From Adlercreutzia caecimuris B7 (GTDB lineage Bacteria > Actinomycetota > Coriobacteriia > Coriobacteriales > Eggerthellaceae): a stretch of 64,000 nucleotides of DNA. The stretch is from contig NZ_KE159646.1 in NCBI RefSeq assembly GCF_000403355.2, positions 2,097,561-2,161,560 of the forward strand. The letters are read 5' to 3'. How positions within the stretch are numbered: position 1 is the first letter of the stretch; every line of letters starts with the position of its first letter. The notes beneath the pieces are model-generated. The model was not told the origin of the DNA and made no database searches. It saw nothing but the letters and a program-made list of their open reading frames with translations. The position numbers and the translations under genes are program-made. Positions 4,018-29,507 of this stretch are shown in pieces.

Positions 4018-4030
4018 GATCGTCTCCTTC

Positions 4031-4759: not shown

Positions 4760-4828
4760 GAGGTTCCCGCCTTTCATGCCGATAGATCAAAGAGACTGAG
4801 GGTGCCCGGCTTTCGCCAGGGGAAGGAG

Positions 4829-4862
4829 CGGGCTGCGGCGGGAGAGAGATCGCCGCAGCCCG
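4829..4862 (-). other. Intra-operon hairpin between dmsC and the next gene
   Basis: A perfect 12-bp inverted repeat (CGGGCTGCGGCG / CGCCGCAGCCCG) with a 10-nt loop. No T-run follows on the minus strand, so it is more likely a 3'-end stabiliser or processing site that separates the dmsABC message from the accessory genes than a full terminator. Confidence 0.5.
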
Positions 4863-4869
4863 CGCGTCG

Positions 4870-5721: not shown

Positions 5722-5724
5722 GAT

Positions 5725-6360: not shown

Positions 6361-6372
6361 GATGCTTCCCTC

Positions 6373-9300
6373 CTATTTCTTGAACGTTTCGTCGGCGAAG
6401 GTATGGGCCTCGTCGAAGGTGACTACCGGCGTCCAGCTCGCGGACGGGTCGGATAGCGTTTCCTGATACGGGTTGGAGTCGGAGAACTGGTTGCCGTGGG
6501 TGTACATCATCGGCTCGAACTCCTCGGGCTCAACCCACACTCGCGGAGGACGCTCGGCCTTCTCTACCTTTACGCAGAAGCCGCGGTTGGTGTAGGAGCC
6601 GTACACCTCGTTGAAGGGCGCGGTGTTCTTCGTGAGGATGTTCACGTTGCACTCGCGCCAGCCGCCGGTCCTCGTCTCCTGGGAGCTGTCGAAGCACTCG
6701 GGATTCCAGAAGCGCTCCATCCACACCACGCTCTCATGCATGCCGTCGGTGAGGTAAACCCGGGCGTGGGTAGAACCGCGGCGGGAGGTGACCTTCACCC
6801 AGTCCATGTGCTGAAGCCCGTACTTCTTGGCTGTCTTGGAGTTCATGCGCAGGTCGGGAGCCGGCCAAATCTCACGCATGAAGGGAGCCTGGCGCTGGGT
6901 GCCGTGGTGGGTGTAGCACACGCGGCCGCTTGTGAGCACCAGCGGGTACTCGGCATCGTAGCCCTCCTCGCCTTCCATGGGCGTCTCGGCCGGCTCGATG
7001 TGCTGGCAGATGGGAGCGTAGGTGCCCTGGTACTCACCGTGGCCGATGGAGGGATCGACCGGCTGCTGCTCGCGGGGGTAGCAGCAGGGGAAGCCGGTGT
7101 TGGCCAGCTGGACGAGCATTTGGGCGTACACCTCGAACTTGCGGCTCTCGGTGCCGAAACCCGCCTTCAGGCCGTCGACGGCGGTCATCTCGTGCTGGTC
7201 GTATACCCAGAAGTCGTTGGGGTCGTTCCACCAGCTGTGGGTACCGTCATCCTTCAGGCGGCCGCCGCCCTCGCCGGCCACGGGCGTCTGGTACTGCTCG
7301 GGATGCTCGTGCAGCGCCGCGATGTCCGGGGCGCCAAAGCGCTCGGCAAAGGACTGCTGGATGCGCTCCTCCGACTCTTCGCCGAACATGATGCCCGGCG
7401 GCAGGGGGAAGCGCAGGTTGAACTTGCTGCGGTCGATGTCGTGCAGGTAGCTCGCACCCTTCGAGGTGGAGAGGAAGCCGTCGTTGGCCGTGGTGGGATT
7501 CTCCATATAGGTACGGCCAGTCGCCTGGCCCACCGCGCCCAGCACGATGTCCTGGCCGGCCTCGAGCTTCGCATTCAGGATCTCTGCCACCTTGCCCATA
7601 ACCTTCTTCGGCGGCACGAAGGTGCCCACTGTCTCGCCCAAGTGCACGATGGGCATCATGCCGAAGTTGAAGTTGAGCTGATTGGCGTTGGTGGTATCGG
7701 GCGAGGGATCCTTCAGCTCGCCGGAGTAGGTGATGTCGCGACCATCGTGGCTCGTGACCTCGAGCCACTCCTCCAAGGGGAAGATGAGGTCGGCGACCTC
7801 GGCCTGGAAGGAAGTGATCATCGGATACTGGCAGATGCAGAAGTCGATCTCGGGAAACACGTCGTACCAAGACGAGGCGTTGCCGAGCATGGCCAGCTTG
7901 TTGCCGGACATGTCGAACCACACGCGCGGCTTGTAGGGCTCGCCGGTGCGGATGGCCTCCAGCACGCTGGGGATGTGGCTGTGCTCCCAGTGGTAGAGGC
8001 CCTTGTGGTTCTTCATGCCGAGGCGGTCGAGGCGCAACTGGTTAGTGATGTAGAGCAGCTGGGAGGAGTGGGGCGTCGGGAAGCCGTCGGGATCGTCCTT
8101 GAAGTCGGCCAAACGCGCGGCGTTCTCCTCGGGCGAGTTGCCCACGATGTAGCCGACGCCGCAGTCGTGCACGATATCGACATTGCGGTACTGGAAGATG
8201 GTCGTGGGGCGTGGCACCAGCCCGTTCTCGTCGGTCTTGGGGCGGGAGTTCTGCGTCAGGGTGCAGCCGGGCTTGTTCACATAGCCCATGATGGCGTCCA
8301 GGCCGCACAGGCCCACGGGCAGCTGGTGGGCGATCTGCTCCATGTCCGAGGACACGCCGTGGCAGATGCCGCCGCACTTGCCCTCCTTCAGGGGCGCGGC
8401 GTACAGCTCGATGGCCTCCTTGTTCACCTCGGCCGGCACCCAGGTAACTTCCTCGGTCTTCTCGAGCGTCCACTCAGAGGCGGCCTCCTTGTAGATTTGG
8501 CCGGCGCTGCGGGCGGCGGCGCCTCCCAGTTCGTCGATGGTGCCGCTCCAGAAGATCTCCGGATCCACCGTGGCGTCCTGGTACTCGAACGGCACGAGCT
8601 TGCCAGTCTTGTTGTCGAAGCAGACGTAGGCCGGAGTGTCGGCAGGCGTGCTTTGCCGGTAGTCGGGCCAGATGTCCGTGGCGCGATAGGGCAGCTTCGT
8701 ATCCTCGTTGATGATGAAGGGCAAGTTCGTCCATTCCTTCACGAAGGCCTCGTTGTAGAGCTTGTTCTCGATGATGTAGTTCCACCAGGACAGGGCGAGG
8801 GCGCCATCGGCGCCGGGCCGCACGCGCAGCCACACGTCAGCCTTCACGGCGTCGGGGCTCATGTTGGGGTCCACCACCACGGTTTTGCAGCCGGCTTCGC
8901 GCAGCTCGGCCATGCCGCGGCCGGACTGGGCCGTCTGGGAAACGGACGGCTGGGCGCCCCACAGCACGATCATCTGGGTGTCGATGGTGTCGGCGTAGCC
9001 CTTCTTGTTCTCATCGTCGATCTGATCCCAAGTGCCCATCTTCTCGTACCAGCGACGGGCAATGCCCTTGAAGGGCTCCTGCACGGCCGCATCGGCAATG
9101 GACTGGTCCATGCCGCCGTACATGAACAGGGCGATAGAGTAGCGCGGCAGGTAGCACTGGGCGCAACCGGGCTCGAACACCGTGGGCGAGCCGAGCGAAT
9201 GGCACATGGTAATGGCCTGGCGCATGGAATAGCTTCCGCCGCCGCCCGAGGACGTGAAGAAGGAGTAGGTCCCGTACTTCTCGATGGCGTCAGCGATCTT

Positions 9301-9723
9301 AGTCGCGGCCAGGTCGATAGCCTCGTCCCACGAAATGCGCTCCCAGGCCATCTCCTCCGCGCCTCGTGCGCCCGAGCGCTTCAGCGGATAGAGCACACGG
9401 TAGGGGCTGTAGCAGTTGTTCAGCTGATTGAGGCCCTTCATGCACAGCGAGCCGAGGGACGTCGGTCCGTAGGGATGGCCCTCGATCTTGGTGACGATGC
9501 CGTTTTCCACATACACGCGGGCAGGGCACGCCTGAATGCATCCGCGGCAGGTCGTCACATAGGTCTTGCGGCCGCTGTCGGTCGAGGCGCTCTCGGCATC
9601 ATCGGCCCAGGCCTGCTCCACCTTGGCGAGCTTGCCCGTGTACCCGACGCTGAGCGCCGCCGCAGCGCCGGCGAGCGAAGCCGTCTTTACGAACGAGCGT
9701 CTTGTCAAGCCTTCACGCGTCAT
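6373..9723 (-). CDS. Molybdopterin oxidoreductase, DMSO-reductase family (DmsA-like), 1116 aa
   Basis: Tat leader with RRSFVK (residues 9-14) and a probable AWA cleavage site near residue 40; no lipobox. A 4Fe-4S site follows (Cys59, Cys62, Cys66, Cys94; CRGCIQACPARVYVENG). The Moco-binding domains and a C-terminal molydop_binding domain (LVLTSGRVCYTHHGTQRQ and TARVYL-type segments) are all present. At ~1116 residues it is longer than classical DmsA (~800), a size shared with the large catechol dehydroxylase-type reductases described in Eggerthella and Gordonibacter, but I cannot assign a substrate. RBS GAGGAGATCA. It leads the operon DmsA-DmsB-DmsC-unknown-TorD-NapG-NapH, directly downstream of a LuxR-type regulator. 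Confidence 0.9.
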   Translation of the reverse strand: MTREGLTRRSFVKTASLAGAAAALSVGYTGKLAKVEQAWADDAESASTDSGRKTYVTTCRGCIQACPARVYVENGIVTKIEGHPYGPTSLGSLCMKGLNQLNNCYSPYRVLYPLKRSGARGAEEMAWERISWDEAIDLAATKIADAIEKYGTYSFFTSSGGGGSYSMRQAITMCHSLGSPTVFEPGCAQCYLPRYSIALFMYGGMDQSIADAAVQEPFKGIARRWYEKMGTWDQIDDENKKGYADTIDTQMIVLWGAQPSVSQTAQSGRGMAELREAGCKTVVVDPNMSPDAVKADVWLRVRPGADGALALSWWNYIIENKLYNEAFVKEWTNLPFIINEDTKLPYRATDIWPDYRQSTPADTPAYVCFDNKTGKLVPFEYQDATVDPEIFWSGTIDELGGAAARSAGQIYKEAASEWTLEKTEEVTWVPAEVNKEAIELYAAPLKEGKCGGICHGVSSDMEQIAHQLPVGLCGLDAIMGYVNKPGCTLTQNSRPKTDENGLVPRPTTIFQYRNVDIVHDCGVGYIVGNSPEENAARLADFKDDPDGFPTPHSSQLLYITNQLRLDRLGMKNHKGLYHWEHSHIPSVLEAIRTGEPYKPRVWFDMSGNKLAMLGNASSWYDVFPEIDFCICQYPMITSFQAEVADLIFPLEEWLEVTSHDGRDITYSGELKDPSPDTTNANQLNFNFGMMPIVHLGETVGTFVPPKKVMGKVAEILNAKLEAGQDIVLGAVGQATGRTYMENPTTANDGFLSTSKGASYLHDIDRSKFNLRFPLPPGIMFGEESEERIQQSFAERFGAPDIAALHEHPEQYQTPVAGEGGGRLKDDGTHSWWNDPNDFWVYDQHEMTAVDGLKAGFGTESRKFEVYAQMLVQLANTGFPCCYPREQQPVDPSIGHGEYQGTYAPICQHIEPAETPMEGEEGYDAEYPLVLTSGRVCYTHHGTQRQAPFMREIWPAPDLRMNSKTAKKYGLQHMDWVKVTSRRGSTHARVYLTDGMHESVVWMERFWNPECFDSSQETRTGGWRECNVNILTKNTAPFNEVYGSYTNRGFCVKVEKAERPPRVWVEPEEFEPMMYTHGNQFSDSNPYQETLSDPSASWTPVVTFDEAHTFADETFKK

Positions 9724-9830
9724 TGATCTCCTCCTCTTCGAAATGAAATAGCGATGCGCTAGCGACTGCTATTATTTCGATGAGGAAAAGGGTGAGAAAT
9801 CCCCCACAGGCATGATTTTCCCAGGTAAGG

Positions 9831-9924: not shown

Positions 9925-11430
9925 TTACGGTTGCCCCGGCGCCCTTCCCTGCATCACGTCGATGAACTCCTGGCGCGTATGAACTCCGAACTTGCCGTAT
10001 ATGTTGCGAATGTGGGTCTTGGCCGTATTGCGGGAGACGCAGAGGCTGTCGGCGATATAGGCTGCATCGCGGCCGTCGCGCATAAGCGCGTAAACCTCCA
10101 TCTCGCGCGGAGACAGGTGAACATCGCCGGGGGTGGCCGGGCTTTCCGTATCGCCGTGCGCCGAAGAAGACGACGCGGGTTCTTCGATGCGGACGCGGGC
10201 CCGCCCCTCTTCCCGAACGCGGTCCTCCCCGTCGTCCTGAACGAGAATCGACGCGAGGTCCTTAGGGCGAATGGCAACGGCGCACAGCAGAAGAATGCCC
10301 ACCATGGCCACGGCAATGGCCGGAATGCCCTGGGTCGCTTCCAGCGAGGGCAGCAGATAGACTCCGACAAGGCCGCCGATAAGCGATCCCCCGGCATAGA
10401 CCGCGCGACCGTACCCAAAGACCTGTATCGGAGAGAAGTAGCGCCCGTGGCCGAGGTAGGCCATGAGCACCCAGATATAGGACGAGAAGAGGCAGTAGAC
10501 GAGGAGCGTTCCTCCCATGGCCACCGGGCTGCCGAAATGGATAAGGTAGGCGAAGAGCACGCAGGCGCTCAGCATAAGAATGGTCGGACGGTACAAGGCC
10601 TCGAGGCGTATCTTCTGCACGCAGGCGAAGGCGACAGTGAGCACGAAGCAGGCCATAATGAGCAGGCTTACCCCCAGGGTAGAGCCGCTGTCGATGCTCG
10701 CCTGATCGAGCCACGACCCGCCGAGGCTGTTCTGCAGGAAGGCAACGGCGCCGATGAGAAAGGCCGCCACGAGAAAGTAGGAGAACGGCTTGACCGGTGC
10801 CCTCGTGAAGTCCACGGGCTCTTCAGGCGCGGCACTGTCATCGTCGCCCACACTCGAAATGGCAAGGGTCAAGGCGGAGAGCAGCGGCAGACCTGCCGCG
10901 AGCAAAAGCCCGATGGCGGGCCATGTTCCCACAGCGAAGAAGAAGATGAGCCCGGCGGCCACATCGCTGAGCAGCGTAGCCGTAACGGCTGCGCCCACGC
11001 GCACCGAGGCGTAGATTTGCCCCGCGCGAACCGCGATAGGCGCCGTAGCGAGGCCGGTGAGAGCGGCGCCAACCCAGAACAAGCCGTTGTCGGCGCTGCC
11101 CCACAGAGCAAGCACGCCGAACTCCAATACGACTCCGGTGCCCGCGACCACCCCCATGAGCACCATGAACACCCGCGAGGAGAGCAGCCCCACCGCGCGA
11201 ATGTGGAAGAAGGCCAGGAGCACCGAGATCACGATGAAACACGTTGTCGAGACGTAGTGCATCTGCAGGCCGGGATTCGCCGCGTCGGGAAGCGCGAAGT
11301 ACATCCAAATCGGCGAAGAGTACATAACGAGAAACCATGCGCGCCAAAATGCGTAGGGGAGGTACTTCGCCGCCGGCCACCCCAAGGCGATTCCTCCCTC
11401 TTCGATATCTGGAAATGCAAAGCGACCCAT
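9925..11430 (-). CDS. LuxR-family regulator with polytopic membrane N-terminus
   Basis: 501 residues from the ATG at 11430 (AGGGGCAGG upstream; a TTG at 11475 would add 15). The first ~400 residues form about twelve hydrophobic helices resembling a transporter-like sensor. A charged linker leads to a C-terminal LuxR helix-turn-helix (LSPREMEVYALMRDG, SRNTAKTHIRNIYGKFGVHT). This MFS-like/LuxR architecture is strongly expanded in Eggerthellaceae, commonly next to respiratory reductases. Position just upstream of dmsA suggests it senses the substrate and controls operon 1, with the 9831-9855 palindrome a candidate target. Confidence 0.88.
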   Translation of the reverse strand: MGRFAFPDIEEGGIALGWPAAKYLPYAFWRAWFLVMYSSPIWMYFALPDAANPGLQMHYVSTTCFIVISVLLAFFHIRAVGLLSSRVFMVLMGVVAGTGVVLEFGVLALWGSADNGLFWVGAALTGLATAPIAVRAGQIYASVRVGAAVTATLLSDVAAGLIFFFAVGTWPAIGLLLAAGLPLLSALTLAISSVGDDDSAAPEEPVDFTRAPVKPFSYFLVAAFLIGAVAFLQNSLGGSWLDQASIDSGSTLGVSLLIMACFVLTVAFACVQKIRLEALYRPTILMLSACVLFAYLIHFGSPVAMGGTLLVYCLFSSYIWVLMAYLGHGRYFSPIQVFGYGRAVYAGGSLIGGLVGVYLLPSLEATQGIPAIAVAMVGILLLCAVAIRPKDLASILVQDDGEDRVREEGRARVRIEEPASSSSAHGDTESPATPGDVHLSPREMEVYALMRDGRDAAYIADSLCVSRNTAKTHIRNIYGKFGVHTRQEFIDVMQGRAPGQP

Positions 11431-11563
11431 ACCAGCCTGCCCCTCTATCGATTCGAGGCACCCCCTCAGGTGCAAGAACGGCGACGATTATAGCATGGCG
11501 CGCCGAGACTGGAGGACCAAGGTCGCGACGTCTCTTTTCGCTTGAGACAATCGCTCACTTGAG

Positions 11564-11642: not shown

Positions 11643-12371
11643 CTACCCGTAGGCGTCGGCGGCGTGGTCGATGGCTTCGAGGTTCATGGCGACGAACTGG
11701 GGTTTCACGCAGGCTTGCACGGCTGCCTTCAGCTCGGCCACGGTAAGGGGGATGCGGCCCTGGGCCACGGCCACGGCGAGCAGCATCATGTTGAGCGACT
11801 TGCGGGAGCCAGCGCCGAGGTGCGCCACGAGCGCCTCGTCGTCCACGGGGATGAAGAGAAGCACGGGATAACCGTCCACGCCGGGAGCTTGGGTGTCCTT
11901 TATGGCGATCGCCCCATCGGCGGCGTCGAGGCTCGCAGCCGCCTCATCGGCCGCATCGGCGGCGGCTGCCTGTTCACGCGGGGCCTCGGCCTGAAGCGAG
12001 TTCGCCAGGGCCGCCACCACATCGCCAGCGCGGTAGGGCTCACCGGCCAGGGCCGTGGTCACGGGTTGGATGGCCGTGGTAGCCGTCACGAGCACGCCGC
12101 CCGGAGCCAGGAACGGCAGCGCCCGGGCCGCTTCGCCGGGCTCCAAGGCAATGACCATGTCGGCCGTGCCTGGCGTGATGAGCGGCGAGAGCACCTCTTC
12201 ACCACCTGAGCCCATGCGCACATGGCTCGTCACGTTGCCGCCGCGCTGGGCCATGCCGATGGTCTCGGCCGTGCGCACCTGCCAGCCCTTGGACTGCGCC
12301 GCCTGGGCCAGCACCTTCGCCGCCAGCACCGTGCCCTGGCCGCCCACACCCGCCAACAGAATGTCGATCAT
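11643..12371 (-). CDS. iorB: Indolepyruvate:ferredoxin oxidoreductase, beta subunit
   Basis: 242 residues. The N-terminus ILLAGVGGQGTVLAAKVLA and the TIGMAQRGG segment are diagnostic of the gamma/POR domain of IorB, followed by a LVIALEP-type strand (MVIALEPGEAARALPFL). With IorA it oxidatively decarboxylates aryl pyruvates (from Trp, Phe, Tyr) to aryl-acetyl-CoA, reducing ferredoxin, in the cytoplasm. Start overlaps the iorA stop (ATGA). An Ala/Asp-rich insertion (around residues 125-150, AAAADAADEAAASLDAADGA) is extra relative to usual family members of about 190-200 residues. Confidence 0.93.
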   Translation of the reverse strand: MIDILLAGVGGQGTVLAAKVLAQAAQSKGWQVRTAETIGMAQRGGNVTSHVRMGSGGEEVLSPLITPGTADMVIALEPGEAARALPFLAPGGVLVTATTAIQPVTTALAGEPYRAGDVVAALANSLQAEAPREQAAAADAADEAAASLDAADGAIAIKDTQAPGVDGYPVLLFIPVDDEALVAHLGAGSRKSLNMMLLAVAVAQGRIPLTVAELKAAVQACVKPQFVAMNLEAIDHAADAYG

Positions 12372-14821
12372 CGGGCACCCCCTTCCTCCAGTGAGCCTTC
12401 CGCCGCGCCCAGGGCCTCGCCGGGCGTCTGGTCAGGCTCGCCGCGCAATTCCGTCTCTTGGAAATCGTTCCGCTCGTCGGCAAGCACCACGGGGATTTCC
12501 CCCGTTTGGAACGGCTCGGGATTTGGGGTGTATCTGGCCGGCTCCACGGCCACCGCACCGCCGAAGCCCACGGCCCCCTCGATGGCGCCGAAGGGACACA
12601 CCTGCACGCACAGGGCGCAGCCGTCGCACAGGCTGCCATCCACGAAGGCCTGGCCGCGCTCGCCCGACTTCGGACCGCGCAGCCCCTCGTCGAAGCCGAT
12701 GCCGGGACAACCAATGGAGGTGATGCACTTCTTGCAACCGGCGCAAAGCTCGGTGCTAATGCGCACCGGCTCCGCCGGCTTCTTCAGCTGAATGCACGGG
12801 GCGCGGAAGATGATGGCCGCAGGCCCGTCGTAATCGATGGCCGCGCGGGCCGCCGCCACGGACATCTCCACGCTGTGCGGATTCGCGAACCCGATGTGCT
12901 GGACGCCCAAGCCGTGCAGCACCTCCTCGATCACAATGGGCCGCCGCTTCTCGCCCATGAGCGTAACGCCGGTGCCGGGATGCGGCTGGCTGCCCGTCAT
13001 GGCCGTGGTGGCGTTGTCCAGAATGGCGAAGGTGACGTCGTGGCCGTTGTATACGGCATTCGCAATGCCCGTGAGCGCGCTGGCGAAGAACGTGGAATCG
13101 CCCACGAAGGCCACCGACTTCTTATGGGGCTCCACCACCGAGAAGCCCTGGGCCATGGTGATGCCAGCGCCCATGCACAGGCAGGTGTCCACGGCATCGA
13201 GGGGCTTGGCATTGCCGAGGGTGTAACAGCCAATGTCGCCGCAGAGCACCGCCTCGCGCCCCTTGAGCGCCTGCTTCACGGCGTAGAAGCTGCCCCGATG
13301 GGGGCATCCCGCGCACAGCACGGGATGCCGTACGGGCAGCACGCCGTCATAGCTGAGGCGGTTCGCGCCGATAGTGCGGGCCGCAAGGGCGGCGAGGGAA
13401 TCAGTCCTTTCGACCTCAGACGAGTAGCGCGAGGACGGAGGCACCTCCTCGCGCGCAGATTCCGCAGACTCGGAAAAAATGGGATACACTTCTGATCCCA
13501 TTTTTTCCGAAAGCGAGGACTTGCTTGAGCACGTGGAGGTGCCTCCGTCCTCGTGCGGCGGAATTGGAAGGGCAGCCCGCGTTCGATCGAAGAACCGTCC
13601 CAGGCGGCCGGCGATGTTCTCGGCGGTGTTCTCGCCGCGGTCGTTGGCGGCACCGGTCAGCTTGCCGTGCACGCGCAGGGACAGGTGGCGCACGCCGGCC
13701 AACTTCTGCATCTCCTCTTCCAGCACCGAATCCAATTCCTCGAAGACGATGACATCGGAAAGCCCCTCCGCAAAGGCCGCCGCCGTTTCCACGGGGAAGG
13801 GGTAGGGCGTGCCCACGGCGAAGAAGCGGTAACGGGGCACAGAAACGCCCGCCCGAGCAGCCTCCCGCTCCAAAAGTGCCAGAGCCTCGCGGGCATAGGC
13901 CACCGACACGCCCCCGGCCACAATGCCCACGCGGGGCTCTTCAACCCCCGAGGTGCCCGCTTCCGGGGCCGCCGCCGCAGGCGCCGCATTTCTTGCGGCC
14001 TGGCCGGCAGCGGAAGTGCGGCCGGCTCCTTCCCCGCCTGTGGGCTGCACGGCACCGGTCGTGCCGGTCGTCGCAGCGGAGGCGGCTGCGGCGGCTCCCT
14101 CTCCGCCCCCCTCGAACACCTCGTTGAACTGCGCCAGCGCCGGATCATAGGCGTAGTCCCAGGCAATTTGGGCCAGGCGGCGGTTGATCTCGCCGTGGCC
14201 CTCAAAGGCCCGCTTGGGGAAGATGACCCACTTCGGATCTTTCTGGAAGCCCTCGGCGGGCAGCGGGCGGCCGTGGGTCTCATCGGCCACCTCGAAAAAC
14301 GTGGACGCATGGTTGATGCGCGTGGTGGGACGCACGATGACCGGCGTGTGGTAGCGCTCCGACAAGTCGAAGGCCGCGCCCATCATGGCAAAGCCCTGCT
14401 CAGGGGTGGCCGGGTCGAGCACGGGCACCTTCGCGAAGGCTCCGAAGCGGCGCGTGTCCTGCTCGGTCTGGGAGGAAATGGGACCCGGATCGTCGGCCAC
14501 GAACAGCACACAGCCGCCGCCCACCCCCACGTAGTTCAGGGACATGAGAGCATCTGAGGCCACGTTCAGCCCCACCTGCTTGCAGGTGAACAGCACCCGG
14601 GCCCCGCAGTAGGACGCGCCCGCGAGCATTTCCAGGGCCGCCTTCTCGTTGGTAGACCATTCCACATGCACGTCCCGGGCCGTGCCGGCCCCATGCAGCT
14701 TCGCCACGGTTTCCACCAGCTCGGACGACGGCGTGCCGGGATAACCCGCCACCACGTTCACCCCGGCCTCTAGGGCCGCGTGGGCAAATGCCTCGTTGCC
14801 CATCAGAAGTTTCTTCGCCAT
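12368..14821 (-). CDS. iorA: Indolepyruvate:ferredoxin oxidoreductase, alpha subunit, with two insertions
   Basis: About 817 residues against roughly 600 usually. Order: pyrimidine-binding TPP domain (MGNEAFAHAALEAGVNVVAG; GYPGTPSSELVE), a middle domain, the TPP/Mg domain (GDIGCYTLG, then GDSTFFASALTGIANAVYN), and a C-terminal double 4Fe-4S ferredoxin (CAGCKKCITSIGCP, CDGCALCVQVCP). Two stretches are foreign to the family. One is an Ala/Gly/Thr-rich linker near residues 240-300; the other, about residues 422-465, is encoded by a nested palindromic element (13427-13556) and is read through in frame. The product is probably functional because all catalytic blocks are intact. Start 14821 gives the usual MAKKLLMGNEAF N-terminus; 14833 is an alternative. 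Confidence 0.92.
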   Translation of the reverse strand: MAKKLLMGNEAFAHAALEAGVNVVAGYPGTPSSELVETVAKLHGAGTARDVHVEWSTNEKAALEMLAGASYCGARVLFTCKQVGLNVASDALMSLNYVGVGGGCVLFVADDPGPISSQTEQDTRRFGAFAKVPVLDPATPEQGFAMMGAAFDLSERYHTPVIVRPTTRINHASTFFEVADETHGRPLPAEGFQKDPKWVIFPKRAFEGHGEINRRLAQIAWDYAYDPALAQFNEVFEGGGEGAAAAASAATTGTTGAVQPTGGEGAGRTSAAGQAARNAAPAAAAPEAGTSGVEEPRVGIVAGGVSVAYAREALALLEREAARAGVSVPRYRFFAVGTPYPFPVETAAAFAEGLSDVIVFEELDSVLEEEMQKLAGVRHLSLRVHGKLTGAANDRGENTAENIAGRLGRFFDRTRAALPIPPHEDGGTSTCSSKSSLSEKMGSEVYPIFSESAESAREEVPPSSRYSSEVERTDSLAALAARTIGANRLSYDGVLPVRHPVLCAGCPHRGSFYAVKQALKGREAVLCGDIGCYTLGNAKPLDAVDTCLCMGAGITMAQGFSVVEPHKKSVAFVGDSTFFASALTGIANAVYNGHDVTFAILDNATTAMTGSQPHPGTGVTLMGEKRRPIVIEEVLHGLGVQHIGFANPHSVEMSVAAARAAIDYDGPAAIIFRAPCIQLKKPAEPVRISTELCAGCKKCITSIGCPGIGFDEGLRGPKSGERGQAFVDGSLCDGCALCVQVCPFGAIEGAVGFGGAVAVEPARYTPNPEPFQTGEIPVVLADERNDFQETELRGEPDQTPGEALGAAEGSLEEGGAR
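13427..13556. repeat. Nested palindromic element inserted in frame in iorA (RPE/MITE-like)
   Basis: Outer arms 13427-13448 and 13535-13556 are inverted repeats (core CGAGGACGGAGGCACCTCC, 19 bp perfect, 21/22 overall). Inside lies a second perfect 16-bp inverted repeat, 13470-13485 and 13495-13510 (TCGGAAAAAATGGGAT and complement), with a 9-nt loop. The A/T-rich inner arms contrast with the GC-rich gene. The element keeps the iorA frame open and encodes a Ser/Glu-rich peptide in a family position that normally has none. Confidence 0.8.
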
Positions 14822-14997: not shown

Positions 14998-16512
14998 TCA
15001 GGCGGCTCCGTCGGCCACGAGATCGAGCAGCCAGGCATACAGGGCGAGAAAGGCGTTGTCGCTGTGCTGCGTGATAGCCCGGGCAGAGCCCCGGGCGAGC
15101 TCGCCGAAGTGGTGGGTGCAGAAATCGAGGCGCAAGCGCTCCCATTCCCGGGCGCTGCCGGCATCTCCCCCCTCGAAGGCGCGAGCCTCAAGAGAGGTCA
15201 CATAGGAGAGAAAATCCAGTTCGCTCACGAGGGCGTCGAAGGGGTCGTGATTGCCGGGACGGTTCTTCAGGCCCAGCTTGCGGTACTCCAAGCCGACCGC
15301 CGCCCGCTCGCCATGGGCCCGGGAGAACTCCGTGCGCCCCTGGACCACCCAGCGGGAGCCGACAAGGGATACCAGACGGGGATAGCCGTAGAACAGGCGC
15401 GTGAACTCGGCCCGCAGATCGCGGGCGCGGGTCGTCGGGCTGGCGGCGGCCCAGGTCTCAAAGCGCGTGGCCAGGTCGACGGGCAGCCCCTCGCCCAGCC
15501 CCAGCCCCGCAAGCAGCCCGCGCACCCGATCGAGCAGCTCCAGGGAGGTATGCTCTTCGGCCTGGCGATGCTCGGGATAGGAGAACAGGCGCGCGAGCAG
15601 CGCATAAAGAGCCGCCAGAGCCGAGGGACGGCTCGCCGCGCCAAGGCGAACGGGAGCCAAGGCCGGGCCCTCTTCGCCGCCGTCGAACACGTAGTCCAGC
15701 AAGCTCATCAGCTCGTCGAAGGCCTCGGCTCGGTGCGCATCGCAGGCCCAGGGGGAGACCACGGCATCCCGCACGCGCTCCACCGCCTCGTGGGAGAGCA
15801 CCCCGGACAGGCGCTGGGCCCCCGCCGGCTCCAAGCGCACCCCGTCGCAGGAGGAGTCGAACGCTACCAGGCCCTTCTCCACCATCCTCTCAACTTGCAG
15901 CCGCATGGCCGGCAGCGATGCGTCCAGGGCCGCCGCCAGGGAGGCGACGCTTACCGCAGCACCGAGGCCGTGAACGTGTCCCAACACCATGATCTGGCCC
16001 GAGGGCACGCCGCGCTGGGCCCCGGCCTGGGCCACCGCCGCGCCCCAGGACGCCAGGGCACCCAGAGCGGGCGCCGGCAGCAGGAAGGCAGCCCCCTCCG
16101 CTCCCGGCTCCCCGAAGCACCGGTGGAGCAGGGTCACCAACCGATCGAAGCCCGCCTCGGTGAGAAGGCGGCTCCGACCGATGAGCGCAATGGCCAGACC
16201 CTCGTCGAGAAGCGCCGCGGCATCGGCCCCTTTGGCCGTAACGCGGAACGCGAAGGTGCGCCGATCCCGAGGGCTGCGCTCCCAGAAAATCTGCTCGCGA
16301 TCCGCAAGCACCGCCGTGGCCTTATCGAGCTGCTCCCGACTCACCCGCAGAAGGGCCGCGGCCTCAGCGGCCACCACACCTTCGGGGCGCTGGGCGGCCA
16401 GGGCCAGACACGCCCCTTCCAGCAGCGTCACATCGCCCAAGGTCAGACTGGTTCGCGCCAGAAATCGATAGAGACGCTGAACGAGGAGGAAACGCTCCGC
16501 GGACGGCATCAT
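14998..16512 (-). CDS. Tandem MarR-like winged-helix protein fused to a TorD-type chaperone
   Basis: 504 residues. The N-terminal ~270 residues carry two MarR-type winged helices: the first has SREQLDKATAVLADR and the wing RSPRDRRTFAFRVTAKG; the second has MRLQVERMVEKGLVAF. The C-terminal ~210 residues are a TorD/DmsD domain (LYALLARLFSYPEH, LRAEFTRLFYGYP, SELDFLSYVTSLE, and the terminal HSDNAFLALYAWLLDLV helix). The start ATG overlaps the upstream stop. A DNA-binding regulator joined to a reductase chaperone suggests that the occupancy of the chaperone by its apo-reductase client could be read out as transcription; this is inference. Last gene of reductase operon 2. Confidence 0.8.
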   Translation of the reverse strand: MMPSAERFLLVQRLYRFLARTSLTLGDVTLLEGACLALAAQRPEGVVAAEAAALLRVSREQLDKATAVLADREQIFWERSPRDRRTFAFRVTAKGADAAALLDEGLAIALIGRSRLLTEAGFDRLVTLLHRCFGEPGAEGAAFLLPAPALGALASWGAAVAQAGAQRGVPSGQIMVLGHVHGLGAAVSVASLAAALDASLPAMRLQVERMVEKGLVAFDSSCDGVRLEPAGAQRLSGVLSHEAVERVRDAVVSPWACDAHRAEAFDELMSLLDYVFDGGEEGPALAPVRLGAASRPSALAALYALLARLFSYPEHRQAEEHTSLELLDRVRGLLAGLGLGEGLPVDLATRFETWAAASPTTRARDLRAEFTRLFYGYPRLVSLVGSRWVVQGRTEFSRAHGERAAVGLEYRKLGLKNRPGNHDPFDALVSELDFLSYVTSLEARAFEGGDAGSAREWERLRLDFCTHHFGELARGSARAITQHSDNAFLALYAWLLDLVADGAA

Positions 16513-17882
16513 GGGCAAGCCGTCCCCTCATCGGACGAGGAAGGGGGCTCACCCGCCGGGGCCCATGATGCCGCCCCCGTTTCCAAGGCGCACGGGCGGC
16601 ACAAGCCATCAACCTGGGAGCGGGCCGGGGCCAGATCGCCGCAACGGCGGCAGGGAGCTATGGGCTGGCGATAGGCCTCCCGCGCCTCGAAGGGGTTGGC
16701 CGCTGCCCGAGCGCCGCGCCGAATGGCCCGCTGGGCGCAGGAGCGCAGACACAGCTCGCATTCGGAGCACAGCCCCGCGTTGAAGCGGTACACGAGCGCG
16801 CCGTCTTCCGCGGTCAGCTGAATGGCCCCGGTGGGGCACATCTGGGCGCAGGTGCCGCATCCGGCGCAGCGCCGATCATCTACCTGCTGCACGGGCCACT
16901 GGTAAGTGCCCCCATCGGTGCGAGCTGCCTCGTCCCGCCAGTACCGCTCAAGGTGCAGCCGCCATCCGATGGCGTGGCGCTTCACCGAACGGGAGGGAGA
17001 ACCGACGCCCTCGGACCCGTCGACCGTCTCGTCCTTCGCAGCCATTACCCGGCGAAACAGCGCCCGAGCCGAAGAGCGGAAGCCGGAAGTGCCGCGTTCC
17101 CCATCCCTTGACACGCCAGCCTCGGCCCCCGCATCGCGCTCGGCACCTGTCGCCGGAACCGCAAATCGCGGCGCAGGGCCGGCCGAAGCCGGAGCCGATG
17201 CCCCAGCCGTCGTCGCAGCGGCAACCTCAGCCGCGAGCGGCTCGGCCGGCGCGGGCGGCTGGGCAGCGGCCCCTTCGGCCGGCGCGGGCGGTTCGGCAGC
17301 GACCTCGCCCCCGGAAAAGGCGATCCCGCCGCTGTCGATGAGGTTTTCCGCCCGATACCAGTCGCCCAGAAGCGCCCGGGCCCGCTCCATGTTCCCGCGC
17401 AGCACCGGACCCACGGTTCGATACAGCGCACAAGCCTCGCAGCGATCGGTGACCAGCGTGCATTCCCGTTCACAGGCCATGGAGAACAGCGCCGCAGGCG
17501 TGAGGGCCGCCAAGCACACGGCCATCTGGTAGGTGTCGGTGGGCGAAGCCAGGGCGGAAAGCTCGCCGTGAGGCAACCAGCAGCGCACGCGCACCGGCCC
17601 CTGGCCGCCCATGCGCTTGAGCGCTCGCCGCTCGGAAAAGTTCGTCGCCCGGAAGGCCTCGAAGGGGCAAGCCGACAGACACGTGCCGCAATGGAGGCAC
17701 AGCGCCGCATCGAACCGAGGGACGGCCGCCTCCCCTTCCCGATGGATGGCATGGCTCGGGCAGGCGCTCACGCAGGAATCGCACCGGGCGAACACGCTCT
17801 TGCGATGCATGCAGCGATCCTCAGCGAACAGGATGTCCACCTTGATGGGCCGGTCGCTGCCGTAGCGCTCGCTCGCATTCAC
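16509..17882 (-). CDS. Cytoplasmic polyferredoxin with a Pro/Ala-rich linker
   Basis: 457 residues from a GTG at 17882 that overlaps the TorD stop (GTGA). N-terminal half: CDSCVSACP and CLHCGTCLSACP clusters, then a domain with Cys-rich segments (CERECTLVTDRCEACALY). The centre is a long Pro/Ala/Glu linker (about residues 195-270). The C-terminal third has CAGCGTCAQMCP and CSECELCLRSCAQ clusters and ends in two CxxC pairs (CRRCGDLAPARSQVDGLC), a small zinc-ribbon-like module. No signal or membrane helix. Such ferredoxins occur with TorD-like genes in reductase operons and may feed electrons during maturation; function not proven. Confidence 0.75.
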   Translation of the reverse strand: MNASERYGSDRPIKVDILFAEDRCMHRKSVFARCDSCVSACPSHAIHREGEAAVPRFDAALCLHCGTCLSACPFEAFRATNFSERRALKRMGGQGPVRVRCWLPHGELSALASPTDTYQMAVCLAALTPAALFSMACERECTLVTDRCEACALYRTVGPVLRGNMERARALLGDWYRAENLIDSGGIAFSGGEVAAEPPAPAEGAAAQPPAPAEPLAAEVAAATTAGASAPASAGPAPRFAVPATGAERDAGAEAGVSRDGERGTSGFRSSARALFRRVMAAKDETVDGSEGVGSPSRSVKRHAIGWRLHLERYWRDEAARTDGGTYQWPVQQVDDRRCAGCGTCAQMCPTGAIQLTAEDGALVYRFNAGLCSECELCLRSCAQRAIRRGARAAANPFEAREAYRQPIAPCRRCGDLAPARSQVDGLCRPCALETGAASWAPAGEPPSSSDEGTACP

Positions 17883-18508
17883 GAGAGAGCCCGCACGAAT
17901 GCCCCGGTCAGCACCGCCAGCCCTCGATAGTACGGCTCGACGGATGCGCCTTCGACCTCGGCGCAGAACCCGGGCACCCACTGGGACAAATGCTCGGCGG
18001 CGAAGGCCTCCAAACGCTCGGCGCCATCGATGCCCCGCTGTTCCAGGGCTTCGCCCCCGTCGGCCAGATAACCGCAGAAGTCGAGCTCGTTGAACAGGTA
18101 GTCGATGCAGTCGTTGTAGTGGGCCTTGCGCACCACGCCGCAGCCTGCCATGAAATCGGCCACGGCCTTGGTGTGGTTGTTGATCATGCGGATCGGGTGC
18201 CTCACCCCGTGCTCCCGCTGCAACCAGGTGCCCTCGGCGTTTTCCACTACGGGATCGGGGCCGATGAACAACCGCGTCTCCTCGCGGCGCAGGGCGTGCA
18301 TCGTCTCGTCGCCGTTGGCGCCCTCGTAGGTGGCAAGGGCGTCGGCGCAGGCCTCGATGGCCGCGGGCGGAAGTTCCAGCGCAGTCGCCGTCGCCGCCAA
18401 ATCGCGAGCCATCATGCCCGAGACGACCGCCTCGATCCACGGGCCGGCCGTCGGAGGCCGCCAGGCCACGGCCAGCAGTTTCGCCATCGTTCCCAGTACG
18501 GTTGCCAT
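17879..18508 (-). CDS. TorD/DmsD-family molybdoenzyme chaperone
   Basis: 209 residues. Contains the TorD hallmarks: RREETRLFIGP (the E-x-x-RLF segment), the HPIRMINNHTKAVADFMAGCG region and YNDCIDYLFNELDFCGYLA (E-x-D-F helix). Start 18508 follows GAGAGGGGAT. Its client should be the lipobox-bearing molybdoenzyme two genes upstream. Interesting that the operon ends with a second TorD domain fused to MarR. Confidence 0.85.
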   Translation of the reverse strand: MATVLGTMAKLLAVAWRPPTAGPWIEAVVSGMMARDLAATATALELPPAAIEACADALATYEGANGDETMHALRREETRLFIGPDPVVENAEGTWLQREHGVRHPIRMINNHTKAVADFMAGCGVVRKAHYNDCIDYLFNELDFCGYLADGGEALEQRGIDGAERLEAFAAEHLSQWVPGFCAEVEGASVEPYYRGLAVLTGAFVRALS

Positions 18509-18590: not shown

Positions 18591-19229
18591 CTACTTCAGG
18601 TAGTACATACACGGACCGGTGCCGGCGTCAACCAGCAGCTGCTCGCTCTCGCGCTCGGCGATGAGCTTCGAGATGTCGCTTTCCGGATCGTTCAGGTCGC
18701 CGAAAGTCATCGCATAGGTGGGGCAGCCCTCCACGCAAGCCGGCAGGTCGCCCTCGGAGATGCGCTGATAGCACAGGTTGCACTTCTCCACGGTGTTCTT
18801 CACGTGGGCCGGCGCCTCGCTGTTGCCCACGGGGAAGCCCACCAGGAACTCCGGCTCGGCCTCCAGGTAGGTGCGCACACCCGCGCCAATGGCCTGGTAG
18901 GGGCAGGCCTCCACACAGCTCTGACAGCCGATGCAGGTCTCGGTGTCCTGGGTGACGATGCCCGTTTCCTCGTCCTTGGCCGTGGCGCCGGTGGGGCACA
19001 CCGCCACGCAGGCCGGGTTCTCGCAGTGCTGGCAGCGCAGGGGCTGGTAGGCGATGGTGTTGGCCCCATAGGAGCCGCCGGGGCAATCCTTCCCCGCTCC
19101 GCCCACGGTATTCACCGTGCAGTACCACACGTCGTTGGGCAGGTTGTTCTCCAGCTTGCAGGAAACCGAGCAGCTTCCGCAGCCGATGCAGCGACGGTAA
19201 TCGATCGCAATGCCGTATTTGTTAGCCAT
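18591..19229 (-). CDS. DmsB-type 4Fe-4S ferredoxin subunit
   Basis: 212 residues with four clusters: CIGCGSCSVSCK, CQHCENPACVAVCP, CIGCQSCVEACPYQAIG and CNLCYQRISEGDLPACVEGCP. This is the standard electron-relay subunit of a DMSO-reductase-type complex. RBS GGGACGGGAATATTC. No anchor gene follows; the electron donor is therefore unclear. Confidence 0.93.
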   Translation of the reverse strand: MANKYGIAIDYRRCIGCGSCSVSCKLENNLPNDVWYCTVNTVGGAGKDCPGGSYGANTIAYQPLRCQHCENPACVAVCPTGATAKDEETGIVTQDTETCIGCQSCVEACPYQAIGAGVRTYLEAEPEFLVGFPVGNSEAPAHVKNTVEKCNLCYQRISEGDLPACVEGCPTYAMTFGDLNDPESDISKLIAERESEQLLVDAGTGPCMYYLK

Positions 19230-19247
19230 GAATATTCCCGTCCCTTC

Positions 19248-21767
19248 TTATTCCGCACCCTGGATGGTGGGGGTGAATGCCGCTTCATCGTTGGCGCCGG
19301 AGCCGTCCCAGGGCTCGATCTTCACGCGGTTGTCGAAGAACGAGCAGTTCACGGCATAGGGGTCGGCGTAGTCGGTAGTGATAGAGCCCATGGAACCGCG
19401 CTTGGTCTCGTTCTCGGCGTAGCCCTTGTAGTACACCGTGCAGCCCTCGCGGATACCGCTGTTGAAGCTGGCCACCATGACGCACTCGCCGAGCCAGTTG
19501 GACACCAAGATCTCCGAGCCGTCCTCCACGCCGTACTTCGCGCCGTCGGCGGGGTTGATGAACAGGCGGGGCTGGTCGTTGAACTGACGGGCCCAGGTGT
19601 CCATGAACATAGTCATGTGCACACGGGAGGGGTTGCGCCACGACATGCAGGTCAGCGGGTAATCGGCGGCGTACTCGGAGTGCGCCCCGGAGATCTTGTT
19701 CTCGAACCACGTGGGCATCTGCTCGCGCTCCACGTTGGAAATGTCGTAGTTGGACGGGGTGCGCGGCGCCGGGGTGTCCACGTAGAACATGAGGCGGCCG
19801 GTCTCGGTGATGAAGTTCGTGAGGCCCACGTTGCCGATATAGGGCTCTTCCTTGGTATAGCGCATCTCCTTGTTCTGACGCAGGGTCTCCATGGTGATGC
19901 CGCATTCCACCGCCGCGGGCACATCCTCGAAGGTGCCCTTCCACCACATATCGTCGTCCACTTCGTTCACGATGTCGCCCACGCCCAGGTACGGGGCCAT
20001 GAAGCGGGTGATCTCAGCGTCGGGCTTGGCCTCGTACATAGGCTCGATGCACTTCTCGGACAGGCGCACGGTGCGCATATGGCCGAGGGGCACCACGTCC
20101 TCGTACTCGTACATATCGCAGGCCGGCAGCAGGATATCGGCATAGCGGGCCGTATCGGTCATGAAGTTGTCCTCGACGATGATCATCTCCATGGGATCGA
20201 GGATCTCCTTCTTCACGCGGTTGGAGTTCACCGAGCCGCCGATCATGCCGCCATGGGACACCCACAGCGTCTTCACCGGGTAGTCCTCGCCCATGAGCTT
20301 GCCGGAGCTCATGATGTCGGCCGCGGCCAGGAAGGTCACCGCCTTGCACATATTGCCGTTGGAGGGCACGGCGGAGGCATGGCCGAAGAAGTTGCCGTAC
20401 ATCATGTCGAAGCCGCCGACGGAGCGACCCGGCTCGCCGAAGTTGCCGGTCATGGCGATAAGCGCCGTCATGGCATAGGCCGCCTGCAGGCCGTTCTCGT
20501 AGGCGCCGGTGCCGAAGTTGATGTAGTGGGCCACCTTGTTAGCGGGCTGCAGCACGTCGTAGAGGAAGTCGAAGTCCTCGTGGGAAATCTCGCACACCTC
20601 GGCCACGCGCTCGAAGGTCCACTCGGCCACATGGTCCTTGAACTTGTCCCAGGCGGTGATGTACTTGTCGTCGGGGCAGGTCCATGCCGGGTCGGCGCAG
20701 GTATCGAAGGGCACCGGCTTCTTCTCGCTTTCCGACCACACCATGATGGGGTCGATCTCGGTGGGCTCGCCGGTCACCCAGAACACGGGGCCCTCGTGCA
20801 GGCCCTCGCCGAACTGGGAGCCGCGCACGTACATGCCGGTCTCCTTGTCGATGAGGTAGGGGGCGCAGGTGTGGTTCAGCACGAAGTCCTTCGCGTAGGT
20901 CTCCTCGTCCATGAAGCGCTTGATGAGGCCGAGGAACAGCGCCGTGTCGTTGCCCATGTTCACGGGAATCCACTTGTCGGCCTTGGCCACGGTGGCGGAA
21001 TAGTGCGGGTCGATGACGACCACCTTCGCGCCGGCGTCCTGGGCATCGAAGAGGAACTTCGCCATCTGGATCTGGGCGAAGATGGGGTTGGCACCGAACA
21101 TGACGATGTAGTCGGAGTTCACGAAGTCGGTGGGCTCGTTCTGATCGAACCACTGGATGCCGCCGCGGGTCAGGCCCGTGTTGGTGGCGTTATCGAAGGA
21201 GTAGTCCCACTTCGTGCAGCCGGTGGCGTTGAACATGCGCATGATAAGGCCCGAGGAACCATGGAGCGAGCCCTGGGCGCCGCCACCGCCCATGTAGACG
21301 GAGTTCGCAAGCGGGCCGTAGGTTTCCGCGGTCTTCTTCCACTGCTCGCCGATGAGCTCGCCGGCCTCTTCCCAGGTGATGCGCTCCCACTGGCCGCCGC
21401 CGCGGGGCGTGCCCTCGACGCGCTTCATGGGATACTGGATGCGCGCTTCGGAATAGGTGCGCGTGATGCGCGACTTGCCCTTGAGGCAGGTGCGGAAGGG
21501 ATAGTCCTTCTTCGGGCGCATGTTCACGACGTTGCCATCGCGCACATAGATGTTGTACTGGCAGAACGAGCAGCTCCAGCTGCAGGTGCAGAAGTACTCG
21601 TCGCCGGTGACGGACAGCTTGGTTTCCTTCTTCTCGTTCTGATCGGTCTCCAGATTCTGCATGTCGCCGCCAGGGCTGCAGGCGGCCAGAGTGCCGGCCA
21701 GGGCCGTGCCCGCGGCGGCGAGGCCCGTTCCCTTCAGAAAGGTGCGGCGGGTCAATGAGGTTGCCAT
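19248..21767 (-). CDS. Molybdopterin oxidoreductase, DMSO-reductase family, Tat lipoprotein-like
   Basis: 839 residues from the ATG at 21767 (GGGGAGATTCT upstream). Tat motif TRRTFLK (residues 6-12) and a lipobox-like LAAC (Cys30) end the leader. The 4Fe-4S site is CxCxxxCxxC...C (Cys60, 62, 66, 69, 94), one Cys more than typical. The body has all Moco domains (WERITWEEAGELIGEQWKK; GANPIFAQIQMAKFLFDAQ; the late NWLGECVMVASFNSGI molydop-binding domain). It heads operon 2 (enzyme, ferredoxin, TorD, polyferredoxin, MarR-TorD). Lipid anchoring would explain the absence of a DmsC gene. Substrate unknown. Confidence 0.9.
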   Translation of the reverse strand: MATSLTRRTFLKGTGLAAAGTALAGTLAACSPGGDMQNLETDQNEKKETKLSVTGDEYFCTCSWSCSFCQYNIYVRDGNVVNMRPKKDYPFRTCLKGKSRITRTYSEARIQYPMKRVEGTPRGGGQWERITWEEAGELIGEQWKKTAETYGPLANSVYMGGGGAQGSLHGSSGLIMRMFNATGCTKWDYSFDNATNTGLTRGGIQWFDQNEPTDFVNSDYIVMFGANPIFAQIQMAKFLFDAQDAGAKVVVIDPHYSATVAKADKWIPVNMGNDTALFLGLIKRFMDEETYAKDFVLNHTCAPYLIDKETGMYVRGSQFGEGLHEGPVFWVTGEPTEIDPIMVWSESEKKPVPFDTCADPAWTCPDDKYITAWDKFKDHVAEWTFERVAEVCEISHEDFDFLYDVLQPANKVAHYINFGTGAYENGLQAAYAMTALIAMTGNFGEPGRSVGGFDMMYGNFFGHASAVPSNGNMCKAVTFLAAADIMSSGKLMGEDYPVKTLWVSHGGMIGGSVNSNRVKKEILDPMEMIIVEDNFMTDTARYADILLPACDMYEYEDVVPLGHMRTVRLSEKCIEPMYEAKPDAEITRFMAPYLGVGDIVNEVDDDMWWKGTFEDVPAAVECGITMETLRQNKEMRYTKEEPYIGNVGLTNFITETGRLMFYVDTPAPRTPSNYDISNVEREQMPTWFENKISGAHSEYAADYPLTCMSWRNPSRVHMTMFMDTWARQFNDQPRLFINPADGAKYGVEDGSEILVSNWLGECVMVASFNSGIREGCTVYYKGYAENETKRGSMGSITTDYADPYAVNCSFFDNRVKIEPWDGSGANDEAAFTPTIQGAE

Positions 21768-21963: not shown

Positions 21964-21992
21964 ATTATAGCCACGGGAAAATGGGCCGTAAA
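21964..21992 (-). promoter_or_regulatory. Candidate sigma-70 promoter for reductase operon 2
   Basis: Minus strand: TTTACG, 17-bp spacer, TATAAT, about 200 bp upstream of the molybdoenzyme start and just downstream of the tandem-MarR gene. Perfect -10 and correct spacing; -35 is 4/6. Confidence 0.6.
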
Positions 21993-22017: not shown

Positions 22018-22641
22018 TTAGTTTTCCTTTTGATATATCGCAGATAGAAGCCGCTGTCCTTCAGCAGTTATACCAATAAGGTGCTGACGGCGATCCTGAG
22101 GCGACGGCCGAAGCGCCACGAGGCCGCGGCGCTGCAAGGCACGGGCCGCCATGGACACGCTTGACTGGCCCATCCCCAAACACGTGGCCGCCGTGCCCAC
22201 GGAAAGCAGTTCCTGCTCCCGCGCGAGCGCCAGCAGCGCCACCTGCCCCACGGTCAGCGCAGCGCCGCGCTCTCGCGCACGGCGCGCTGCCTGGCGCAGA
22301 TGCTGGGCGATGGCGAAGCAGCAATCCAGCCCGTCGGCCCCCAATGCCTGGGTCAGCTCGAACAGCACGTTCTCGCCGCGGGCCGTTACGCGTAGCAGGC
22401 TGCGGCGACGGTCTTTCGGGCTGACGCGCTCGGCCACCACATCCAACTCGATCAGCGAACGCACCAGCGCCGCCACACGCGATGGCGGCAGCGAAAGCCC
22501 CACGGCTAACTCCCCCGCCAACAGGGGCTGCTGTCGGGCCACAACCCGCAGCGCCTCTACTTCCCCAACGCCCAGCGGCCCTGAGCCCAGGCAGTCTTTC
22601 AGGGCCGCGAGCGCGTCTCCCCACTCCTCCAGAGAGGCCAT
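22018..22641 (-). CDS. Tandem-MarR winged-helix regulator (single-chain pseudodimer)
   Basis: 207 residues, two complete MarR-type winged helices in one chain. The first has LPPSRVAALVRSLIELDVV plus wing SPKDRRRSLLRVTARGE; the second has MGQSSVSMAARALQRRGLV plus wing SPQDRRQHLIGITAEGQ. Ordinary MarR proteins are ~140 residues and dimerise; here the dimer seems built in. The same architecture forms the N-terminus of the MarR-TorD protein at the other end of operon 2, so the two may be paralogues or partners. Starts 2 bp after the purE stop; probably controls the operon 2 promoter that follows it. Confidence 0.82.
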   Translation of the reverse strand: MASLEEWGDALAALKDCLGSGPLGVGEVEALRVVARQQPLLAGELAVGLSLPPSRVAALVRSLIELDVVAERVSPKDRRRSLLRVTARGENVLFELTQALGADGLDCCFAIAQHLRQAARRARERGAALTVGQVALLALAREQELLSVGTAATCLGMGQSSVSMAARALQRRGLVALRPSPQDRRQHLIGITAEGQRLLSAIYQKEN

Positions 22642-26806: not shown

Positions 26807-26818
26807 CGCTATCCCTCC

Positions 26819-29401: not shown

Positions 29402-29507
29402 GAGTTCCTCCTGTTCTCCTCATGCGGGCGCGTCGCGCGATAGGACGCAAGGGCAGACCTGCTTCTTCAACCGAGCGCTTCTCGACGCCGCACCCATGAC
29501 ACCTCGT

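Follow-up and report, generated by a model that had tools for sequence, protein, structure and literature searches.

The window analyzed here, a 64,000-nt stretch of the Adlercreutzia caecimuris B7 genome, carries on its minus strand a gene in which a MarR-like half, designated Reg2, is joined to a TorD-like half, designated TorD2. The gene and its parts are as follows:

14998..16512, minus strand: Reg2-TorD2 fusion gene, 504 aa, with ATG at 16512 and stop at 14998
15670..16512, minus strand: Reg2 half, residues 1–281, tandem MarR-type winged helices
16228..16278, minus strand: wing of the first winged helix, D-R-R...T-A-K-G, residues 79–95
15829..16011, minus strand: second winged helix, residues 168–228, with a short wing lacking D-R-R (strands 216–219 and 224–227 in the model)
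15658..15675, minus strand: fusion junction, where GAAGAGGG codes for an E-E-G linker and is followed by an in-frame TTG at 15660
14998..15660, minus strand: TorD2 half, residues 285–504 and the stop codon, PF02613, DmsD/YcdY/NarJ/TtrD fold

AlphaFold models of the Reg2 half (15-row alignment) and the TorD2 half (14 rows) were built separately and do not give the relative orientation of the halves; a joint full-length alignment for a single model was dropped, as it dragged the second Reg2 halves onto TorD. A previous interpretation of this DNA (the sequence-only reading) had proposed tandem winged helices in the N-terminal half and a TorD domain in the C-terminal half, and structure prediction left neither fold missing: two MarR-type units were modeled in the former (mean pLDDT 91.4) and a TorD domain in the latter (pLDDT 91.3). 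The presence of two predicted folds in one chain, MarR-like and TorD, can therefore be regarded as confirmed at the level of the models. An assembly or frameshift artefact is unlikely, since the same fusion, with 56% identity to the window protein, occurs in a second species whose genome (G006) was assembled separately, and the fused pair forms one clade in the trees of both halves (support 100/100 for Reg2 and 100/99 for TorD); in G006, which is 79% complete, the fusion frame begins at a contig edge. Compared with each other, the two fused rows give an NG86 dN/dS of about 0.44 over the Reg2 half and 0.24 over the TorD2 half.

The TorD2 half matches PF02613 with an expected value of 2.3e-9 (40 bits vs. 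a cut-off of 22.2) and TIGR03482 with 5e-14, well under the NCBI cut-off, and all 14 TorD2 members searched match PF02613 at E ≤ 0.01. In VIA, the first 11 rows obtained with the TorD2 model are all YcdY, DmsD, TtrD, NarJ and REMP-like entries with Z scores of 11.6–16.3 (YcdY 16.3, DmsD 15.3, TtrD/AF0160 13–14, NarJ 11.6–13), the next row standing at 6.5. TorD itself (1n1c), a domain-swapped dimer, ranks 46th with a Z of only 4.3. LRxExTRLF-like and DxLxxELDF-like motifs are present. Of the (E/D)PxDH motif, which precedes the ELDF helix in this family and may have a role in leader binding, the Asp is conserved in 15/15 TorD2 proteins and the His in 7, the 8 proteins lacking the His including both fused members.

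The fusion gene overlaps the stop codon (TGA) of the upstream polyferredoxin gene by its own ATG, as ATGA, and occupies the last position of a molybdoenzyme operon, just as the sequence-only reading had it. The gene order, 5' to 3' on the minus strand, is upReg-Mo-FeS-TorD1-FeS4-fusion, with gene starts that are candidates:

16509..17882, minus strand: FeS4, polyferredoxin with two 4Fe-4S regions, candidate start GTG at 17882
17879..18508, minus strand: TorD1, separate TorD-family chaperone (PF02613, E 1.2e-15), candidate start ATG at 18508, GTGA overlap with FeS4
18591..19229, minus strand: DmsB/DsrO-like Fe-S subunit
19248..21767, minus strand: Mo/W oxidoreductase catalytic subunit (PF00384, E 7e-42), start ATG at 21767 behind AGAGGATAGGGGAG
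21660..21767, minus strand: twin-arginine leader MATSLTRRTFLKG... of the Mo subunit (PF10518, E 1.5e-4, 22.0 bits vs. a cut-off of 22.7)
21964..21992, minus strand: promoter-like TTTACG-17-TATAAT between upReg and Mo, with the same hexamers and spacing in G006
22018..22641, minus strand: upReg, canonical tandem MarR regulator (PF12802, E 2.4e-17), candidate start ATG at 22641

The best PDB match of the Mo subunit is 4ydd, of the type II DMSO-reductase family (E 5e-38). In the product of upReg, the gene preceding the Mo promoter, both recognition helices are basic and both wings carry DRR. That the first enzyme of the operon may be the client of the fused chaperone, as had been suggested, has partial support: the Mo subunit carries a Tat leader, although the PF10518 match falls just under the cut-off, and in the window as well as in the relatives the TorD2 gene lies near a Tat-exported molybdoenzyme. 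However, this assignment is weakened because a separate chaperone, TorD1, is already present in the operon. TorD1 and TorD2, both kept within the same operon, form separate clades (100/100) in a tree of 25 rows restricted to these two groups. A promoter at 21964–21992 had also been claimed; a promoter-like site does occur there and in G006, but the scan yielded 2 such sites in the scanned stretch vs. 1.2 expected in shuffles, i.e. chance level.

Several features of the surroundings are worth noting: 1) Two further molybdoenzyme clusters are located in the window (3283–9768 and 26234–29419), with a third TorD encoded in frame 3283–4230; genome-wide there are 14 PF02613 matches, 11 of them outside the window. 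2) The genes iorA and iorB (indolepyruvate:ferredoxin oxidoreductase, 11643–14821) directly follow the fusion in both fused species (window and L047), and no match to them was detected in the 18–19 kb around the operon of two species with split genes (G007 and G008). 3) A LuxR-type regulator with a GerE domain and a long N-terminal part, membrane-spanning by eye, is encoded at 9925–11475 and is 79% identical in G006. 4) Between the fused species, the Mo and Fe-S subunits (18591–21767 vs. L111 of G006) share 95% identity, with NG86 dS values of 0.48 and 0.58; upReg, TorD1, FeS4 and the fusion halves share 44–69% (dS 0.9–1.65), and the neighbors IorA, IorB and LuxR 79–88% (dS 0.74–1.3). A recent exchange between lineages may have involved the Mo and Fe-S genes but not the accessory genes, the alternative being a stronger codon constraint.

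The Reg2 half matches PF12802 (MarR_2) with an expected value of 6e-7 (32.3 bits vs. a cut-off of 27), the best stretch being the second unit. In VIA-align, MarR-family chains match each of the two units with Z scores of 12–14.6, and SarS (1p4x) was the sole Foldseek match at E ≤ 0.001 (272 columns, E 6e-4, TMq 0.46, rmsd 7.6). Dimerization helices like those of MarR regulators are present in the model. The wing of the first unit conserves [DN][RK]R in 17/17 Reg2 proteins, D-R-R...G being among their most conserved features, and its counterpart in the ST1710 alignment is D-R89-R90 (residue numbers as in 3gfm, the K91A chain). According to PMC5526998, DNA contact in ST1710 depends to a large extent on the residues that match the conserved wing Arg89, together with Arg81, of Rv2887, whereas Rv2887 itself uses mainly helix 4.

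No DRR-like motif could be found in the second half of any of the 17 Reg2 proteins. With upReg as the control, the first 10 residues of the recognition helices have a mean net charge of -0.47 (unit 1) and -1.67 (unit 2) in Reg2 (n = 15) vs. +1.9 and +1.1 in upReg (n = 10), differences with nominal p values of 2e-5 and 5e-7 that come from related rows and from a register set by a MAFFT alignment with indels. The Reg2 helices average 1.0 and 0.6 aromatic residues vs. none in upReg, and 1.6 and 1.27 Ser/Thr residues vs. 2.6 and 2.9; the composition seen in upReg (rich in Ser/Thr, without aromatics and with few acids) is thus not shared by the Reg2 units. Recognition-helix charge by itself is not a decisive criterion for these predicted helices: ST1710, whose structure was solved with DNA, has a net charge of -1 over the corresponding residues, but with 4 Ser/Thr. 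A MarR_2 match at E ≤ 0.01 was obtained for 7 of 15 Reg2 proteins, the one in the window among them, vs. 10 of 10 upReg proteins, and the two groups appear from hhalign (probability 97.6, E 4e-12) to be distant paralogues. Reg2, which has lost its second wing and whose recognition helices do not resemble those of upReg, seems to be a poor reader of DNA; upReg is likely to be the operator binder and Reg2 its divergent partner. The proposal that chaperone load alters DNA binding by Reg2 is therefore the weakest step of the sequence-only reading: the MarR fold and the basic first wing are consistent with it, but the atypical helices and the loss of the second wing motif are not.

With the Reg2 half as the query, a search of 396 genomes of the class gave matches in 14 at E ≤ 1.8e-19 and in 42 at E ≤ 1e-6, and a search of 138 family genomes gave matches in 14 at E ≤ 1e-10, 13 of them strong and one weak (G239, 2e-11); among 396 genomes of the phylum, an even and hence thin sample, only the source genome was matched at E ≤ 1e-10. 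The Reg2 set comprises 17 loci, including UBA948. Reg2 is fused to TorD2 in 2 of these (window and G006), lies next to a separate co-directional TorD2 gene in 12, is adjacent to a convergent one in 2 (G017 and G075) and is without TorD in 1 (the second copy in G278), so that it adjoins or is fused to TorD2 in 16/17 loci; the TorD2 of G402 spans two reading frames. Nine loci have the full order upReg-Mo-FeSB-TorD1-FeS4-Reg2-TorD2 within a single contig (window, G007, G237, G278, G379, G305, G180, G290 and UBA948, the last with upReg in two frames). The G006 operon is spread over two contigs, with FeS4 on another contig, and the G008 and G329 contigs stop within Mo, leaving upReg outside the view. 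FeS4 lies beside Reg2 or TorD2 in 15/17 loci and is absent from the orphan G278 locus. In G017, the accessory genes stand beside a Mo subunit merely 31% identical to that of the window, plus an NrfD-like membrane subunit; the accessory set is therefore not tied to one enzyme.

The two halves are thus normally separate genes of a conserved operon, and the fusion is lineage-specific. It is rare, being found in 2 of 17 loci; in the family, where the sequence-only reading had proposed to survey its frequency, it occurs in 2 of the 13 genomes that have a strong Reg2 match among the 138 searched. Besides its full operon, G278 carries an orphan pair of intact upReg-like and Reg2 genes (L102, 9593–11585) located between proA-like and uvrA-like genes (named by eye), and a profile search over 19.5 kb revealed no Mo or TorD gene nearby. 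A more distant cluster, in a Campylobacterales MAG (L122), combines an FeS4-like polyferredoxin and a weak TorD match with an Fe-S subunit and a distant Mo gene (24%), and no Reg2 was found there in 13.9 kb; the predicted TorD and polyferredoxin pair occurs there without a MarR-like partner.

Judged from the junctions, the fusion is the result of losing the stop codon between Reg2 and TorD2. In split operons, an in-frame TorD2 start is found 8–11 nt past the Reg2 stop in 7 of 11 junctions (G007, G008, G050, G237, G278, G180 and UBA948). In the fused rows, the Glu run of the linker (E-E-G or E-E-E) comes from GAAGAGGG or GAGGAGGAG, which resembles the purine-rich runs ahead of TorD2 in G305 and G290; the Glu-rich linker looks like a recoded relic of a ribosome-binding site. 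Since the in-frame TTG at 15660 follows the linker run by 7 nt in the window, some free TorD2 may still be made there from this internal start; the spacing in G006 is less suitable. As the fused rows form one clade in both trees, a single fusion event is the simplest explanation.

Linkage between Reg2 and TorD2 was also assessed from pairwise distances. With the Mo and Fe-S distances removed, no specific covariation of Reg2 with TorD2 was detected (partial r 0.08 over 9 operons, a comparison of low power); higher values were obtained over the same number of operons for TorD1-FeS4 (0.50), TorD2-upReg (0.49) and Reg2-FeS4 (0.39). When the 138 family genomes are ranked by the TorD2 profile, the top 13 are those that carry a strong Reg2, a co-occurrence that is partly circular, with 12 of the 14 profile rows coming from those genomes. 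In G017 and G075, which are deep branches, the two genes are convergent yet adjacent, and shared transcription alone therefore does not explain the linkage. Taken together, these gene arrangements support a lasting linkage of Reg2 with TorD2, while the orphan pair of G278 ties Reg2 to upReg. When the stretches between upReg and Mo in 10 operons were scanned for gapped palindromes, no motif shared among them emerged. In G007 (L045, 5524–5640), an inverted repeat, GGTAACGTT-CCGGAAC-AACGTTATC, with 9-base arms and one mismatch, is located behind a TATACT box upstream of Mo and is a candidate operator for upReg, palindromes having been found in single species only.

We tentatively favor the view, with a probability of roughly 0.4, that the fusion protein serves as a co-regulator coupled to a chaperone and probably works together with upReg, not by itself. 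TorD2 would bind the Tat leader or the cofactor-free catalytic subunit, its occupancy would change the state of the Reg2 half, and Reg2 would then adjust transcription of the operon by pairing with or antagonizing upReg through the MarR dimerization helices, perhaps aided by its one basic wing. The path via upReg is the likelier one, given that upReg has the look of a good DNA reader and Reg2 that of a weak one. In relatives with split genes, a Reg2-TorD2 complex could do the same job. Adjacency or fusion in 16/17 loci, which persists through strand inversion, the separate TorD1 and TorD2 clades, the first wing kept in 17/17 proteins and the orphan pair of G278 point to such a role; the lack of specific Reg2-TorD2 covariation, the orphan Reg2 without TorD, the atypical helices, the loss of the motif His and the lack of a shared operator argue against it.

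Nearly as likely is an incidental fusion, in which an effector-sensing Reg2 and an ordinary second chaperone, neighbors because members of the operon are co-translated, were joined when the stop codon was lost, the halves remaining independent and an internal start possibly releasing TorD2. The short Reg2-TorD2 gaps, which ease read-through, the Glu run coded by what may be a former ribosome-binding site with its TTG 7 nt on, the fused state in merely 2/17 loci and the absence of specific covariation would all be expected from such an event. It accounts less well for an adjacency that outlasts strand inversion in G017 and G075, for TorD2 being a retained clade apart from TorD1, and for a fused state kept without internal stop in two species whose Reg2 halves are merely 47% identical. 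A good deal less probable is that the MarR-like half regulates nothing and is a dimerization or docking module for maturation, for example of TorD2 with FeS4 or TorD1. The second wing motif missing from all 17 proteins, helices that are acidic or aromatic on average, the 8 of 15 Reg2 proteins without a MarR_2 match at E ≤ 0.01, the position of FeS4 in 15/17 loci and the covariation of Reg2-FeS4 distances (partial r 0.39) fit such a scaffold, but the conserved D-R-R...G of the first wing is hard to explain without nucleic-acid contact, the window Reg2 half matches MarR_2 above the cut-off, and in G278 Reg2 pairs with upReg where no enzyme was found nearby. The least likely explanation, and an improbable one, is that an operator at the Mo promoter is recognized by Reg2 itself, whose binding is altered directly by leader-bound TorD2. 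The MarR fold of both units, the basic first wing, the promoter-like site at 21992–21964 that recurs in G006 and the example of ST1710, whose helix charge did not prevent it from being solved with DNA, are compatible with direct reading; against it stand the atypical recognition helices and lost second wing motif, the presence of upReg as the canonical candidate, and the finding that the 10 scanned operons share no palindrome between upReg and Mo.

Molybdoenzymes are costly, and cofactor insertion is required before Tat export. In its fullest form, which we consider doubtful, the chaperone-coupled co-regulator would be a maturation checkpoint within one chain: the occupancy of TorD2 by enzyme lacking its cofactor or not yet exported would be passed via a Reg2 impaired in DNA reading to upReg as the true regulator of the operon, so that transcription would follow the backlog of unfinished enzyme, with a Reg2-TorD2 complex serving the same end in the split species. 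To our knowledge, no case has been described of a TorD-type chaperone reporting its load to transcription. With the natural fusion and the set of split operons, gut anaerobes offer material for testing the idea. Should the fusion prove incidental, the operon would still merit a name of its own as a conserved unit that pairs two tandem MarR proteins with two chaperones of the TorD type.

Both domain families and two-domain MarR-like proteins are known already; for a TorD-regulator fusion, no paper was found among the matches listed, judged by title and the start of the abstract in a search covering few subscription papers. TorD2 resembles the TorD/DmsD/NarJ family (REMPs, PF02613) in its fold, its PF02613 match, its motifs and the location of its gene beside a Tat-exported molybdoenzyme, but differs in being fused to a MarR-like half, in being the second TorD of its operon and in the absence of the motif His from the fused clade. 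A word search of the main text of a survey of NarJ-subfamily chaperones (PMC4464133) returned neither "fusion" nor "fused", and the available sections of a paper on Paracoccus NarJ (PMC6618116) discuss the regulation of narJ but do not mention NarJ regulating transcription. Reg2 shares with canonical MarR regulators (ST1710, MTH313, MarR and MepR) the fold, the modeled dimerization helices and the D-R-R wing of the first unit; unlike them, it is tandem and asymmetric, and 8 of 15 members lack a MarR_2 match at E ≤ 0.01. The closest structural precedent is the Sar/MarR protein SarS of Staphylococcus aureus, the best Foldseek match (1p4x), which likewise has two MarR-like winged helices in one chain and is described in PMC10715151 as two homologous halves and not a dimer; Reg2 differs from it in lacking the second wing motif, in its atypical recognition helices and in being joined to or located beside a chaperone.

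With the catechol dehydroxylase genes of Eggerthella lenta, the operon shares genes for a Mo enzyme, a TorD-like chaperone and ferredoxins, which are co-induced there according to the accessible text of PMC11887054; the regulators named in that text are instead DadR, DadS and a LysR type, and the word MarR does not occur in the main text of the paper. The nearest parallel to a chaperone acting on transcription is SicA-InvF of type III secretion, in which a secretion chaperone partners a transcription factor and, as stated in PMC7595419, sopB expression requires the InvF-SicA complex although the DNA affinity of InvF is unchanged by SicA. The likeness is one of concept only, since the proteins and the export system are unrelated and the two SicA-InvF partners are separate chains. 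If the proposed co-regulator is real, Reg2-TorD2 would be a counterpart, in an unrelated export system, of the chaperone-regulator coupling of type III secretion.
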